In this document: positions 11,039 through 23,161 of the stretch, in pieces
How the letters are laid out: each line of letters begins with the position of its first letter
Numbering within the stretch: the first letter of the stretch is position 1
From: a virus
DNA: 27,723 bases
IMG/VR virus record: IMGVR_UViG_3300025300_000077
Span: 1-27,723 of that record
Direction: 5' to 3' (one strand)
Notes under the pieces: model-generated
Database searches by the model: none
What the model saw: the letters and a program-made list of their open reading frames with translations, nothing else
Told to the model about the DNA's origin: nothing
Program-made: the position numbers and the translations under genes

Positions 11039-11593
11039 TTACGACCTCGCTTCAAGCCATGTGTTTTCGCTGGCAGACGTTGTTTCCTGGGCATCAACCA
11101 ACCGCGCTTCTTGTATTAGTGATGCATAAGCTGTCGATGCAGCCGTCACCACGGTTTGCGAAGACGTAATTTCATACGCCACATCAGACGCAAGACGCAT
11201 GGCATAGGCTTCCGTAAACTTTGCATCATAGATTGACGTGTCCGTAACGTCGGCAATGTAAAGGATGTTTAAAGGCGCAGCAGCATCGGTAACAATGTTG
11301 CGGCCTTCCACTGACCATTCCTCTGTTGTATCTACCTCAATGATGCGAAGGCAATCAGACGGCCACGGGAAAGAATTAGAATATTCCCAAACAGGTGCGG
11401 TTGTGTCAGCCGCCAAGGCGACACGGGTCATGGCAAAATTCCAAGGATGATCGCGCAAGCAATATTGCCGCGACTGTTCATGGATGCGGTTAATTGCGCG
11501 GCCTTCAACCGTATCATCTGTCAGCGCCGTAATAGGATCGGCGCCCAAATAGGTCAGACCTTTGTTGGCAATGTCTACGATTGATCCGGCCAT
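11039..11593 (-). CDS. Tail tubular protein A (T7 gp11-like adaptor, 184 aa)
   Basis: Short adaptor that joins the portal to the nozzle. Its hallmarks are visible: IANKGLTYLGADPITAL at the N-terminus, RQYCLRDHPWNFAMTRVAL and FPWPSDCLRIIEVD in the middle, and a helical C-terminal half (AYAMRLASDVAYEIT). Length is typical of the family (about 180-200). The ATG at 11593 has GGAG 9 nt upstream, and its stop abuts the start of the nozzle gene. It is the first gene of the leftward tail block, after a 267-base non-coding gap that follows the opposing plus-strand cassette, so a separate promoter or readthrough is needed to express it. Confidence 0.88.
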   Translation of the reverse strand: MAGSIVDIANKGLTYLGADPITALTDDTVEGRAINRIHEQSRQYCLRDHPWNFAMTRVALAADTTAPVWEYSNSFPWPSDCLRIIEVDTTEEWSVEGRNIVTDAAAPLNILYIADVTDTSIYDAKFTEAYAMRLASDVAYEITSSQTVVTAASTAYASLIQEARLVDAQETTSASENTWLEARS

Positions 11594-11731
11594 ATAAAAT
11601 CTCCAAATTTCTGATTTTTGTCAGAAACACCAAAATCCCGAAAAAGCGTTTTTTTCAGCAATCATTTCATTTTTACGTTTTTAAAATCAGTCACTTAATT
11701 TTTTGACTTTTAAAAAACCCAGCGTTTCTGC
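11594..11731 (-). promoter_or_regulatory. AT-rich leader of the tail operon with hairpin
   Basis: Gene-free, very AT-rich stretch upstream of tail tubular A. A perfect 7-bp stem (TTTCTGA, 11608-11614, with TCAGAAA, 11621-11627) lies just before the ribosome-binding site, and A5-GCG-T7 at about 11641-11655 forms a weak AT stem. I found no convincing sigma70 promoter on the minus strand here, so either a phage-specific promoter or readthrough drives the tail genes. Confidence 0.4.
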
Positions 11732-11760
11732 ATGTTTCAGCCATTTTTCAAAAGTGCGTG

Positions 11761-11769
11761 TGGTATAAT
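11761..11769 (+). promoter_or_regulatory. Extended -10 promoter of the plus-strand cassette
   Basis: TGGTATAAT is a perfect extended -10 element (TGnTATAAT, with TATAAT at 11764-11769). No good -35 exists, as is usual for extended -10 promoters. Predicted start of RNA is near 11776, upstream of the left inverted repeat and of the gene at 11861. It points against the surrounding late operon. Confidence 0.6.
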
Positions 11770-11806
11770 GGGTCAACAAGCGGAAAAACCCGTGCCGCTA
11801 TTTTAC

Positions 11807-11836
11807 ATTGTGAATACAAAACCGTGTTGCCGTGGC
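11807..11836 (+). repeat. Left arm of 30-nt inverted repeat
   Basis: Pairs with 12275-12304 over 30 positions with only four differences. Each difference is a transition that gives a G-U or U-G wobble in plus-strand RNA (and C-A mismatches in minus-strand RNA). It encloses the ribosome-binding site and gene at 11861-12220. Its inner end (CGTGGC, 11831-11836) can alternatively form a local 6-bp hairpin with GCCATG at 11841-11846, right beside the AAAGGAG ribosome-binding site. Confidence 0.85.
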
Positions 11837-11860
11837 TTTTGCCATGAAAGGAGAATTGTC

Positions 11861-12220
11861 ATGGCTAACTCAAAAGACTTTCTTTGCTACATCCCGATGA
11901 TGACGGGCGGCTCATATGGTCGCCATAAAAATCGGGGTGAAGCGATCCTTATGGCTTTTCGATATTTTTCAAGTGATTGGGGCAGCATGTATGATGTCTT
12001 CAATCGAGAGATCAAAGGCTACGTTGCCGAGATTACCGGCTTTAACGAAGTTCAATTTGGACCTGTCGAAGGTATTTGGGCCGACATTGAGGACGGTGGT
12101 AAACATCGTTTTGAGCTTGAGAAAATTTCTGTTCAGATGCCTCCGCTCAGAAAGAACCAACGTGCAACCGGCGATGCCTTTCGCCGTAAGCTAAAGCAGG
12201 CTGTTCTGGCCTCTCAATAA
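11861..12220 (+). CDS. Unknown 119-aa protein in inverted-repeat cassette
   Basis: I do not recognise this protein. ATG 11861 is preceded by a strong AAAGGAG at 11847-11853, which rules against the longer in-frame start at 11732 that lies upstream of the predicted transcription start. It is soluble, with no membrane segment, an aromatic N-terminal half (FRYFSSDWGSMYDVF) and a basic C-terminus (PLRKNQRATGDAFRRKLKQA). There is a single cysteine near the N-terminus and no known catalytic pattern. It is the only rightward gene inside the leftward structural block, has its own promoter and terminator-like structure, and is framed by a 30-nt inverted repeat. This is the pattern of a phage moron or accessory cassette. 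An early or lysogenic role is possible but not shown. Confidence 0.75.
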   Translation: MANSKDFLCYIPMMTGGSYGRHKNRGEAILMAFRYFSSDWGSMYDVFNREIKGYVAEITGFNEVQFGPVEGIWADIEDGGKHRFELEKISVQMPPLRKNQRATGDAFRRKLKQAVLASQ

Positions 12221-12268
12221 AGAAGCGCTTAGGGCTGCAACCCTAGACGCCTCTAACTAACTTCTTTT
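12221..12268 (+). terminator. Terminator-like structure after the cassette gene
   Basis: Begins at the stop codon of the 119-aa gene. AGAAG (12221-12225) pairs with CTTCT (12261-12265), and inside it GCGCTTAGGG (12225-12234) pairs with CCCTAGACGC (12241-12250) with one mismatch and one G-U. TTTT follows at 12264-12267. A branched, moderately convincing intrinsic terminator for the plus strand; readthrough would be needed to transcribe the right inverted-repeat arm. Confidence 0.5.
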
Positions 12269-12274
12269 AACTTC

Positions 12275-12304
12275 GCTACGGTAGCACGGTTTTGTATTTA
12301 CAAT
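12275..12304 (+). repeat. Right arm of 30-nt inverted repeat
   Basis: Complement of 11807-11836 as described for the left arm. It contains an internal near-palindrome GCTAC-G-GTAGC at 12275-12285. No target-site duplication is visible outside the two arms (TTTTAC on the left, CAATTA on the right), so a simple transposon insertion is not supported. Confidence 0.85.
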
Positions 12305-12337
12305 CAATTAAAGAGGAAAGGGGGGTCGAAACCCCCC
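12305..12337 (-). terminator. Terminator of the capsid block
   Basis: Six G (12320-12325) and six C (12332-12337) form a perfect GC stem with a 6-base loop. Read leftwards it is followed by TTTCCTCTTTAATT, a U-rich tail; read rightwards there is no T run. It lies 6 bases after the stop of the 159-aa gene. It should end or attenuate transcription coming from the capsid gene before the tail block. Confidence 0.75.
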
Positions 12338-12343
12338 AATCCG

Positions 12344-12823
12344 TTAGTCAACGATGTAATGAATGATGAAACTCATATCACCGCCGGTGCCACCTTCCGC
12401 GTGCATCGTTGCCGCGACATAGTAGAAACCGCCTGGATCAGTTGAATCACCAGCCAATTCATACATCTTCTGGCCGCAAGTGTTGATGTCTGCCGCTTCA
12501 TGGCGAACATCAGCCATTGCCCCAGCATCAGCAACGGCAGTAGCAAAAACGTCTTCGTCTTTGACCACGCCAGCCGATGTGTAGATGCCTACGTTGAACG
12601 TGCAGCTTCCACCAAACGTATCGGACCCAACAAAGATATGGGGCACAGATGCGTTCGACGGGATGGGCGCCAACATAACGATGTCGTTATCGTTGGTATC
12701 CCCAGCCGCAAGCGCCACACTACCTTGTGCAATTCGCACACGGCCATGTAATTCGGCACTGTCGTTCAGCGTTGGAGGGGTTGCCTCAAAATTGGCAACC
12801 AAGTCGGTGTTTTTAGTACCCAT
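12344..12823 (-). CDS. Probable head decoration-type protein (159 aa)
   Basis: Beta-rich, acidic protein directly downstream of the major capsid protein, 12 nt away, with AGGAGGGATGACC before the ATG, one of the best ribosome-binding sites in the window. Visible patterns are alternating hydrophobic strands (RVRIAQGSVALAAGDTNDND, CTFNVGIYTSAGVV, DMSFIIHYIVD) and no enzyme motif. Small beta proteins in this slot are common in aquatic podophages and are usually annotated as hypothetical; a capsid-stabilising or head-fibre role is inferred from position and the strong translation signal. It is the last gene before the capsid-block terminator. Confidence 0.6.
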   Translation of the reverse strand: MGTKNTDLVANFEATPPTLNDSAELHGRVRIAQGSVALAAGDTNDNDIVMLAPIPSNASVPHIFVGSDTFGGSCTFNVGIYTSAGVVKDEDVFATAVADAGAMADVRHEAADINTCGQKMYELAGDSTDPGGFYYVAATMHAEGGTGGDMSFIIHYIVD

Positions 12824-21441: not shown

Positions 21442-21543
21442 ATGGATATTTTTATCACAATTTACCTAGTCTTTTTATTCCTGGCCATTTGGGGCGCTTT
21501 CGGCGCTGTCATTTACTTTGGAATAAAGGCGTCGCTGTCATGA
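21442..21543 (+). CDS. Second 33-aa single-span membrane peptide
   Basis: MDIFITIYLVFLFLAIWGAF followed by GAVIYFGIKASLS: nearly the whole chain is hydrophobic, ending with a single Lys and Ser residues. AGAGGGAAACC precedes the ATG, and the TGA overlaps the next ATG (ATGA), so it is probably translated. It has the same length as the peptide at 21131 but different sequence; the pair flanks the 63-aa protein. No family recognised. Confidence 0.58.
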   Translation: MDIFITIYLVFLFLAIWGAFGAVIYFGIKASLS

Positions 21544-21761
21544 ACAAATACAAACTCAAAACATATTGCTTAAACATCACACCACACCGCGAAACGTGTG
21601 AAACTGTTTACGCTAAAACCGCCGTTGATGCCATTCGCACTGTTCCATTCTGGAAGGGCGCCATTGGATTTGTTGTTGATATAGAAACTAATGGTGAAAT
21701 TAAAGCACATACACAAGACGGCAACGGTTGCAATGGGGCTTATGCTGAAATCATAAATTGA
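21540..21761 (+). CDS. Hypothetical protein (73 aa)
   Basis: Not recognised. ATG 21540 overlaps the stop of the membrane peptide (ATGA), which fixes the start. The sequence begins MNKYKLKTYCLNITPHRETC and has predicted beta strands and one helix (TVYAKTAVDAIRTV), ending CNGAYAEIIN. Four Cys are present (positions about 10, 20, 62 and nearby) but no knuckle spacing. It is the last gene of the first transcription unit of the island: the following 90 bases hold a direct repeat GGCGCGTC-GTTTC-GGCGCGTC and the second leader hairpin. Confidence 0.6.
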   Translation: MNKYKLKTYCLNITPHRETCETVYAKTAVDAIRTVPFWKGAIGFVVDIETNGEIKAHTQDGNGCNGAYAEIIN

Positions 21762-21818
21762 TTATATCGCAAGGCGCGTCGTTTCGGCGCGTCTAACGAT
21801 GTAATTAGCATCAACCAA

Positions 21819-21832
21819 GGGCAATTGTGCCC
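21819..21832 (+). repeat. Leader hairpin GGGC-N6-GCCC, copy 2
   Basis: GGGC-AATTGT-GCCC, ending 20 nt before the ATG of the Gp88-family gene, again followed by an A-rich stretch and AAGGA. Differs from copy 1 only in the first two loop bases. Confidence 0.75.
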
Positions 21833-21852
21833 GCCTAAAAAAGGAAAATATA

Positions 21853-22587
21853 ATGTATTTCTATTTAAACCCGAAATCCGCAAACAAAAAGACCGGCAAA
21901 ATGCCTGTTTCCACAAGTGATCGTAACACTTGTCCCGATTCTTGCCCTTTCAAGAACAATGGATGCTATGCGGAAGGTTACCCGTTAAAAGGGCGTTGGG
22001 ATGAAGTAACAGACGGCAAACGTGGCGGGTTGTTTTCCGATTTCGTTAACCAGGTTTCCGCATTGCCCGCCAATATCCTATGGCGCCACAATCAAGCGGG
22101 CGATTTACCAGGCGACGGTAAAAATATAGATCGTGGCGGGCTTTTAGCACTTGCTGGCGCGAACGCCGGAAAGCGTGGGTTTACGTTTTCCCATTACGAC
22201 GTAGAAACAAACAAACATAATCGCGCCGCTATTGCTACGGCGAACGCCAAAGGCTTTACAATTAATTTATCTGCTAACAATTTAGATCATGCGGACAAAT
22301 TAACGGACCTGGACATTGGTCCCGTCGCGACGGTTTTACCTATCGAATACGAGCGCCAAAGCAAAAAGGGCGTTTGGCAAGAAACGATGCATGAATATCG
22401 CGAACGCCTTAAAACATTGCCGGAAACGACGCCTGATAAAAACAAATTTGCCGTATGTCCGGCGACGTATCGTGACGACGTAACTTGTAAAACGTGCGGA
22501 CTATGTCAAAAGCAATCGCGCAAAGTTATTGTGGGCTTTCCAGCACATGGTAACAGCAAGAAAAAAGCAAGCGCCGTCGCTTCATAA
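21853..22587 (+). CDS. Gp88-family cysteine-rich protein (244 aa)
   Basis: Matches a family widespread in phages of Actinobacteria and Proteobacteria, named after mycobacteriophage gp88. Diagnostic segments are MPVSTSDRNTCPDSCPF, NGCYAEGYPL, LWRHNQAGDLPGDG, GFTINLSANNLDHAD, CPATYRDDVTCKTCGLCQ and KVIVGFPAHG. Seven conserved cysteines (27, 31, 38, 202, 212, 215, 218) lie in two clusters, suggesting a metal or Fe-S site joining the two ends of the protein. The biochemical role of the family is not established. AAGGAAAATATA precedes the ATG, and the leader hairpin copy 2 lies just upstream. Length and motifs look intact. Confidence 0.85.
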   Translation: MYFYLNPKSANKKTGKMPVSTSDRNTCPDSCPFKNNGCYAEGYPLKGRWDEVTDGKRGGLFSDFVNQVSALPANILWRHNQAGDLPGDGKNIDRGGLLALAGANAGKRGFTFSHYDVETNKHNRAAIATANAKGFTINLSANNLDHADKLTDLDIGPVATVLPIEYERQSKKGVWQETMHEYRERLKTLPETTPDKNKFAVCPATYRDDVTCKTCGLCQKQSRKVIVGFPAHGNSKKKASAVAS

Positions 22588-22617
22588 ACGCGCTCACATT
22601 GCGATTGATCGCCATTG

Positions 22618-22646
22618 GCGGGATTCCCCAGGGATTGCCCGCTTTT
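22618..22646 (+). terminator. Terminator after the Gp88-family gene
   Basis: GCGGG (22618-22622) pairs with CCCGC (22638-22642), with an inner CCC/GGG able to pair, followed by TTTT (22643-22646). A further small palindrome GCGAT-TG-ATCGC (22601-22612) precedes it. It separates the Gp88 gene from the last unit of the island. Confidence 0.55.
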
Positions 22647-22656
22647 GGTGTTAGTA

Positions 22657-22670
22657 GGGCAATGGTGCCC
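22657..22670 (+). repeat. Leader hairpin GGGC-N6-GCCC, copy 3
   Basis: GGGC-AATGGT-GCCC, ending 17 nt before the ATG at 22688 and followed by GAGAGGA. Third copy of the island leader element. Confidence 0.7.
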
Positions 22671-22687
22671 ATGTGAGAGGATACGAA

Positions 22688-22957
22688 ATGAAAATTATAG
22701 AAATACAGCCTGAAACAATAGAAGCATTCCGGCGCCAATGGCCATGTAGCGGATTGCATGACGTTAATCACATTGTCGCAGCATTTGCAGAAAATGGCGA
22801 TTTAGTAGACTATGATTGTTGCGACGAATTAAGCAATCCCATAACTAACACCTGGGAAGAGTCCGGCGCTTTACCGGCGTTATTAGACGACGCAAAACAA
22901 AACGCCGAAATTATACCAATGCCCGCCGGAACAATAGGCCCAATTTGGAAATATTAA
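22688..22957 (+). CDS. Hypothetical acidic protein (89 aa)
   Basis: Not recognised. ATG 22688 is chosen because AGAGGA lies 7 nt upstream; a GTG at 22673 would place the ribosome-binding site inside the gene. Visible features are an N-terminal strand (MKIIEIQPETIEAFRRQWPC), a hydrophobic helix (HDVNHIVAAFAENGDLVDYD), a CC pair and a C-terminal MPAGTIGPIWKY. It is acidic overall with no membrane segment. It is followed 3 nt later by the HTH gene and shares its leader hairpin type with the other island units. Confidence 0.6.
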   Translation: MKIIEIQPETIEAFRRQWPCSGLHDVNHIVAAFAENGDLVDYDCCDELSNPITNTWEESGALPALLDDAKQNAEIIPMPAGTIGPIWKY

Positions 22958-22960
22958 ATT

Positions 22961-23161
22961 ATGACACCCGATGAATTAAAAAGCATTCGCTATGCCTTGG
23001 GCCTAACGGTTCGGGGCTTGGCCGATGCATTGTCAGAACCTGGGCATAAACCCGTAAACCCGCGAACGGTTAGACGTTGGGAAACCGGCGAACAAGATAT
23101 ACAAAGCCCCGTTGCCGTCGCTTTGCGTTTACTTTTGCGCGAAAAAAAGCGCGAAAATTGA
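22961..23161 (+). CDS. XRE-type helix-turn-helix protein (66 aa)
   Basis: The chain is essentially one DNA-binding domain: LKSIRYALGLTVRGLADAL is the first part of an XRE/Cro helix-turn-helix, and NPRTVRRWETGEQDI contains the recognition helix and the W-E-x-G hallmark. The C-terminal PVAVALRLLLREKK helix may dimerise. It could repress the island promoter or another phage promoter. The ribosome-binding site is poor (GGAAA about 10 nt upstream), so it is probably coupled to the 89-aa gene. It is the last plus-strand gene before the convergent terminator. Confidence 0.75.
   Translation: MTPDELKSIRYALGLTVRGLADALSEPGHKPVNPRTVRRWETGEQDIQSPVAVALRLLLREKKREN

Follow-up and report, generated by a model that had tools for sequence, protein, structure and literature searches.

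A mobile phage cassette whose transcript may imitate the layout of a ribosomal RNA operon

A small antisense gene closed by a predicted long RNA helix

The window analysed here (the whole stretch of DNA under study) comprises the 27,723 bases of a viral record and encodes a capsid protein that is 50–58% identical to those of HTVC010P-type pelagiphages. Between a tail protein gene (11039–11593, minus strand) and a small structural-type gene (12344–12823, minus strand) lies a short antisense gene, the cargo of a cassette with the parts listed in Table 1. Elsewhere in the window, a plus-strand cluster (21489–23161) encodes a DUF7227 family protein (21853–22587; E 1.7e-85) and a small helix-turn-helix protein (22961–23161).

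Table 1. Features of the cassette in the window, and arm sequences of the comparable families in other phages
Feature	Position	Strand	Remarks
Mobile shell	~11632–12308		~680 bp
AT-rich left part of shell, upstream of promoter	11632–11757	+	Conserved in five cassettes differing in cargo and flanks
Extended -10 promoter element, TGGTATAAT	11761–11769	+	Sequence evidence; TATAAT in 5/5 aligned cassettes
boxB-like hairpin	11780–11798	+	GCGG..CCGC in the window; GCGGG/CCCGC and GCGAG/CTCGC in relatives
rRNA-operon-type boxA, GCTATTTTACATTGTGAATA	11797–11816	+	20 nt
Arm 1, leader strand of enclosing helix	11807–11836	+	Overlaps 3' half of boxA
Shine-Dalgarno AAAGGAG	11847–11853	+	7 nt before ATG; inside helix-closed loop
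Cargo ORF, 119 aa	11861–12220	+	No known family
Hairpin right after stop codon	12222–12253	+	Conserved; precedes arm 2
Arm 2, trailer strand of enclosing helix	12275–12304	+	
Right end of mobile shell, ACAATCAAT	12305–12308	+	Between-cassette similarity ends here
Late-operon intrinsic terminator adjoining insertion site	12320–12337	-	Phage backbone, not cassette; present in relatives' empty sites
Arms of family F2, AAACCCTTTGAGTGAGCCCGTGGCC			L204, L177, L181, L176
Arms of family F3, GTAAGCTGTTTAGATGAGCCGTGGGCC			L194, L184, L187, L193, L185, L180
Arms of family F4, GACTCCGACCTGTTGAGTGACCCGTGGGCC			L174, L198
Arms of family F5, TTTGCCTGATTGAGTGGGCCGGAGCC			L186
Arms of family F6, GACTAGGGGCTTTCATGGCCGCAAGGC			L203, L192

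The left part of the shell has a G+C content of 30%, against 49% for the window, and could be a UP-element-like region, although this is only inferred. A promoter scan at the cassette found no good -35 element next to the extended -10 sequence. The stem of the boxB-like hairpin changes on both sides among cassettes, and its place upstream of boxA is that of the hairpin in rRNA operon (rrn) leaders. The hairpin following the stop codon also shows changes on both sides (4 of 13 pairs in six cassettes), with a covariation of 0.308 compared to 0.147 in shuffled alignments. Only minus-strand terminators were found, and none for the cassette on the plus strand; its transcript may possibly run on against the capsid genes. 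Rfam gave nothing above gathering score in 11600–12400, and what is enclosed is an ORF rather than an rRNA.

The 119-aa cargo protein has no Pfam, PHROG or PADLOC match, no relative in a scan of bacterial genome contigs, and only a weak match to a Citromicrobium phage (24% identity, E 0.03). A fold prediction was uninformative (AlphaFold2 with five sequences, pLDDT 40). The dN/dS ratio is 0.21–0.32 between diverged alleles (0.50 for the closest pair), which indicates purifying selection on the ORF.

The two arms pair over 30 nt with four differences (arm pairs 6, 21, 23 and 28), all of which read as G-U or U-G wobble pairs in RNA of the plus strand and as A-C mismatches in that of the minus strand. 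A sequence-only reading of the window had described the arms in exactly these terms, together with a promoter outside them and the 119-aa ORF, and all of this held. Scored at +2 for Watson–Crick pairs, +1 for G-U and -3 for mismatches, the repeat reaches 56 and is the top inverted repeat of the whole window, while the best repeats in 40 dinucleotide shuffles of the window had a mean of 32.7 and a maximum of 40. In the predicted minimum-energy structure of the plus transcript all 30 arm pairs form (mean pair probability 0.99), compared to 18 of 30 in the minus transcript (0.72), and the duplex energies are -47.5 and -30.4 kcal/mol, respectively. A leader–trailer helix that links the two ends of the enclosed RNA is thus well supported as a structure and is backed by the covariation described below, but without RNA data. 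What the earlier reading missed was the rRNA-type boxA overlapping arm 1, the hairpin preceding it and the second hairpin behind the ORF; the stem belongs to a larger leader that resembles that of an rRNA operon.

Mobility and exchange of cargo

That the shell is mobile and exchanges its cargo is shown by comparison of related phages. In L019 and L020 the neighbouring capsid and 159-aa proteins are 98–99% identical to those of the window, yet there is no cassette, and the insertion spot holds only the late-operon terminator and a ribosome-binding site. Such empty sites in relatives measure 47–68 bp. Alleles of the 119-aa gene that are 64% and 62% identical occupy the same spot in L012, L013 and L014, and an 88% identical allele is found in a different phage (L009, L010), the capsid of which is only 24% identical. 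Among cassettes in different flanks, similarity starts near 11632 and ends at 12308. The L009 cassette adjoins another terminator and has a 37-nt direct repeat (92%) on either side; these copies (L009:955–991 and 1677–1713) represent a duplicated terminator bracketing the cassette, and hint at the route of insertion.

A search with the leader arm recovered 13 contigs, and a separate search with the trailer arm recovered the identical 13. Two of these carry unrelated cargo: L195, at the window's spot, has a 153-aa cargo matching phrog_3754 (unknown function), the only hit in protein family searches of the cargoes, and L196, a third phage with the cassette beside other late genes, has a 93-aa cargo. 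The shell has therefore been seen in three phage backgrounds and with three unrelated cargo genes. Its modules also reassort, since the left part of the window's shell is 93% identical to that of the unrelated phage L196 but 74% to that of L012, which has the same cargo, and in L009 the distal leader is 94% identical to L012 while the ORF is 93% identical to that of the window. Spread by recombination at late-gene terminators and through homology of the shell itself would be the simpler explanation, although this remains an inference.

These comparisons bear on the sequence-only reading, which had proposed selection on a long-range stem enclosing the message in the cassette's own transcript, with an invertible segment or a mobile cassette as alternatives. 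The checks it suggested support the stem: the arms change together in relatives, and no homologous cassette lacking them was found, all 13 leader-arm contigs keeping the trailer arm. Close relatives without the cassette exist, so that it is a mobile cassette as well, with no target duplication at the window site. The invertible segment is not supported, as all copies at the window site, and those in other phages for which the flanks were read, have the same antisense orientation.

A host-type boxA and the same layout in other phages

The boxA pattern has a single match in the window, the one in the cassette. In bacterial genome contigs the pattern CTMTTTKACATTGTGAATA recovered 57 stretches, mostly alphaproteobacterial. 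It lies about 120–140 nt upstream of 16S rRNA in five contigs (L114, L122, L123, L147 and L156) and between tRNAs and 23S rRNA in L148, and a BLAST comparison added further 16S boxA matches in L151 and L168. As 16S leaders and the tRNA–23S spacer are the places of boxA in rrn operons, the cassette motif (19–20 nt) is the rrn boxA of marine alphaproteobacteria. The match to the host consensus is shown at the level of sequence; binding of Nus factors and resistance to Rho are inferred from it. The motif occurs once per record in eight boxA phages and not at all in nine relatives of the window phage without the cassette (up to 39 kb), indicating that it arrives with the cassette.

Sites of a similar kind were also seen in other settings. 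Two Robiginitomaculum-like MAGs (G021 and G022, contigs L164 and L129) carry 28 and 24 dispersed boxA-like sites, respectively, and a Magnetovibrio MAG (G023, contig L136) carries 11. In Robiginitomaculum, a TATAAT-type promoter is followed by the boxA-like site and then by conserved CAATGAAACATGGGTTT and DnaA-box-like TTATCCACTGGGAAA. None of the dispersed sites has an Rfam match at gathering score, and it could be inferred that they represent an unnamed family of small, boxA-led transcripts. In the proteobacterial MAGs L118 and L146, repeated boxA motifs precede conserved GGAAWAACTCRAACCCCGCCGGTGGCGTCGGTTTG; those of L118, at 3162 and 3712, are 550 bp apart and show no rRNA match. Small genes in four AT-rich phages (L178, L179, L201 and L202) are preceded by a promoter, a strong TTATAAATTTTAATAGATTTATAA hairpin and boxA, with no enclosing helix.

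When the 60 nt after each phage boxA site were compared to downstream sequence within about 1.5 kb, counting scores of at least 40, a partner arm was found at 17 of 35 distinct sites but in only 5 of 2500 random windows from the same contigs. No long partner arm was present at the other 18, and the arms of gene 1 in L101/L175 were too weak to be counted (score 25). The common order begins with a promoter, in many cases followed by a hairpin, and continues with boxA, the first arm, the gene and the second arm. Of 36 phage boxA sites, 28 have a TATAAT-like hexamer (at least 5/6) at 25–80 nt upstream, where shuffles expect 16.6. With the window's arm family designated F1, the arms of F2–F6 (Table 1) are unlike those of the window in sequence. 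In F1–F6 they start 0–25 nt from boxA, and in F1 the first arm overlaps it. The helices are 25–31 nt long and, in F1–F5, enclose a ribosome-binding site (10–20 nt inside the helix), one gene and its stop codon. In both L184 and L174 the first helix-closed gene is followed immediately by another, the two sharing a single boxA upstream. Within the F2–F5 group the same arms occur with different genes, and the boxA unit stands at the front of a longer operon of the same direction; behind F1 cassettes there is no such operon. Because they share downstream small-terminase-like and nuclease-like genes (judged by eye), F2–F5 are apparently related and count as one lineage, from which F1 and F6 are separate.

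The cargo proteins of L204, L177, L181, L176, L185 and L186 share conserved NRYCGPSVIS and GWHWQL motifs, with no Pfam match, and possibly have a cysteine-peptidase-like fold, an inference from sequence alone. Homologues of this cargo are found without the shell in the cultured Roseobacter phage CRP-901 and Erythrobacter phage XM05. Since neither boxA nor helix is present in these two or in Sinorhizobium phage Phosso, another with a cargo homologue, the shell is not tied to a gene family. Comparison of the leader sequences to cultured phages gave nothing useful.

Between families the arm sequences diverge completely and pairing is retained. In the F2–F5 group (15 units), 86.7% of cells pair and both sides have changed in 21 of 30 pairs; the covariation score is 0.507, compared to a mean of 0.199 in shuffles, none of which reached the observed value, and to at most 0.150 when the partner was slid by 1–3 columns. 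Among the eight close F1 sequences, 96.7% of cells pair and three pairs change on both sides. The arms change jointly (CAA, CGA and GGT-type variants on both sides), but the covariation of F1 is modest, at 0.104 against 0.072 for shuffles (4 of 500 reached 0.104), and two of five measures were not above shuffles.

Covariation alone cannot separate RNA from DNA. As to strand, cells with G-U outnumber those with A-C by 26 to 4 in F1 (plus 4 others) and by 27 to 5 in the F2–F5 core. Counted as distinct column states, which are nearer to independent events, the excess is weak (6 to 3 and 13 to 5, respectively). By duplex energy, 17 of 20 units are more stable in the sense strand and two in the antisense strand, with one tie, although many units share ancestry. 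That every difference is a G-U pair, as had been claimed, is true of the window but not absolute in relatives: broken pairs include A-C in L014, L095, L009 and L196, and a U-U mismatch in four. The direction agrees with selection in the sense transcript.

A proposed rRNA-like expression shell and its alternatives

The layout, the selected sense-RNA pairing, the identity of boxA with that of host rrn operons, mobility and cargo exchange are shown by the present analysis. The best explanation, which we favour without regarding it as settled, is a mobile phage cassette with a transcript that copies the layout of an rRNA operon.

Of the alternatives, the one that survives best, although unlikely, is that the helix is real and under selection in RNA for another role (a stem for RNase III processing or for insulation, or a translation switch), with boxA independently doing no more than antiterminating an operon downstream. 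In its favour are the longer co-directional operons headed by F2–F5 units, the lack of a helix at about half of the phage boxA sites, and the position of the ribosome-binding site just inside the helix. Against it are the closeness of the arms to boxA in all six families, extending to overlap in F1, and the F1 cassettes, which have no such operon to antiterminate. It is very unlikely that the arms are DNA inversion sites that flip the gene off its promoter. Inverted repeats do flank an ORF with its promoter outside, but no inverted copy exists among same-site cassettes, with one orientation wherever flanks were read; arm 1 is transcribed and overlaps boxA, the differences favour pairing in sense RNA, the arms of other families are unrelated in sequence and show compensatory changes, and no invertase was noted nearby. 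If the arms were instead the terminal inverted repeats of something transposon-like, this would suit a mobile cassette with sharp borders and the direct repeat flanking that of L009, but the idea is equally improbable: the left arm is set about 175 bp in from the left border, there is no transposase, cargo varies between copies, and no target duplication is seen at the window site or in L196. Facing copies of one protein-binding site (an operator or phage-polymerase promoter) are also very unlikely. The two 30-nt copies in opposite orientation and the nearly palindromic TTGTAAATACAA in arm 2 speak for such a site, but the window has no third copy, five of these phage records gave no match to T7-type RNA polymerase (weak evidence, the controls being unable to detect the family), and arms diverge fully between families with pairing kept. 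As for integron cassettes, no RYYYAAC/GTTRRRY pair was seen by eye and no integrase was noted, without a dedicated search.

The favoured reading, an rRNA-operon-like shell, draws on what is known of E. coli, where the sequences flanking rRNAs form long leader–trailer helices, more than 17 bp of which are critical for 30S biogenesis, and boxA is the key element for the antitermination complex (PMC10250234). In a model discussed there, NusB holds on to boxA, and the leader strand is thereby retained at the RNA exit channel for as long as the trailer has yet to come out. As the order of parts is the same, we propose the same course for the phage message, by analogy only. Host RNA polymerase would start at the extended -10 promoter; the published pelagiphage Skadi-1, from a study that covers HTVC010P as well, has no RNA polymerase gene of its own (PMC10504331). 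The nascent RNA would present the boxB-like hairpin and then boxA, which is inferred from its sequence to recruit the host NusB–S10/NusA/NusG/SuhB antitermination complex. With the leader strand immediately behind boxA still tethered near the polymerase, transcription of the gene would extrude it as a loop, and the trailer strand, once out, would pair with the leader strand. The closed helix, with ribosome-binding site and ORF in its loop, would seal both ends of the message and shield it from 5'-end-dependent and 3' exonucleolytic decay, and RNase III may cut the helix, freeing the mRNA from longer transcripts. The shell would thereby provide Rho-resistant expression of a small accessory gene by host polymerase, independent of site and even antisense between late genes. 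There are no RNA data of any kind, and Nus recruitment, antitermination, folding order, folding in the cell, protection, RNase III cleavage and cargo function are all inferred.

Among known systems the closest is the rrn leader (boxB-boxA-boxC, with the 16S leader–trailer helix), which has the same order of parts and, in alphaproteobacteria, the same boxA. The terminal helix of the phages exceeds the length required in E. coli, and the tandem sealed genes of L184 and L174 behind one boxA parallel 16S and 23S behind one leader. Unlike the rrn leader, the phage shell encloses a protein-coding message, is phage-borne and mobile with exchangeable cargo, and has no identified boxC, the arms starting at or within 25 nt of boxA. 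Nus-dependent antitermination of phages (nut sites of lambda, with N, and put of HK022) likewise rests on a phage RNA element whose boxA and hairpin would modify host RNA polymerase, but in nut boxA precedes boxB, whereas the shell has the rrn order and so does not qualify as a nut site, and its gene is enclosed by a long helix. No N-like protein was identified for the shell, although such proteins vary too much for a search to rule them out. The suhB mRNA also has boxA in its 5' leader, where it represses expression of its own gene, with no enclosing helix described (PMC5725501); the boxA of the shell, in contrast, abuts a leader–trailer helix. Like morons, the cassette is an extra gene with its own promoter between late genes, absent at the same site from close relatives, but it is antisense to the operon, has no terminator of its own that could be found, and its rRNA-like RNA shell is common to different cargoes. 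The icaR mRNA of S. aureus has long-range 5'–3' UTR pairing that is short and gene-specific, as opposed to a covarying terminal helix beside boxA in unrelated phages. A search of the open-access literature found no boxA with enclosing helix around a phage mRNA, which is no proof of absence. Each part is known singly; to our knowledge, their joint occurrence in a mobile shell whose cargo can be exchanged has not been described. The shell fits no known family and, as far as function can be inferred, acts like the leader and trailer of an rRNA operon without being one.

A bolder reading, which we consider rather more plausible than its negation, is that marine alphaproteobacterial phages carry an undescribed class of mobile, rRNA-operon-mimicking expression shells, with coevolving arms, an end-sealed and antiterminated message, and interchangeable cargo, sometimes with two sealed genes in tandem. 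If this is true, phages dependent on host polymerase would imitate the host's most privileged transcript, rRNA, and gain a Rho-resistant, end-protected mRNA for small accessory genes. It would represent a new mRNA architecture that can be recognised computationally, as boxA followed by a covarying terminal helix, and a testable case of the roles of boxA and the leader–trailer helix outside ribosome assembly. The shell would also be a marker for undiscovered accessory genes of phages, the cargo families found here being nearly all unknown.
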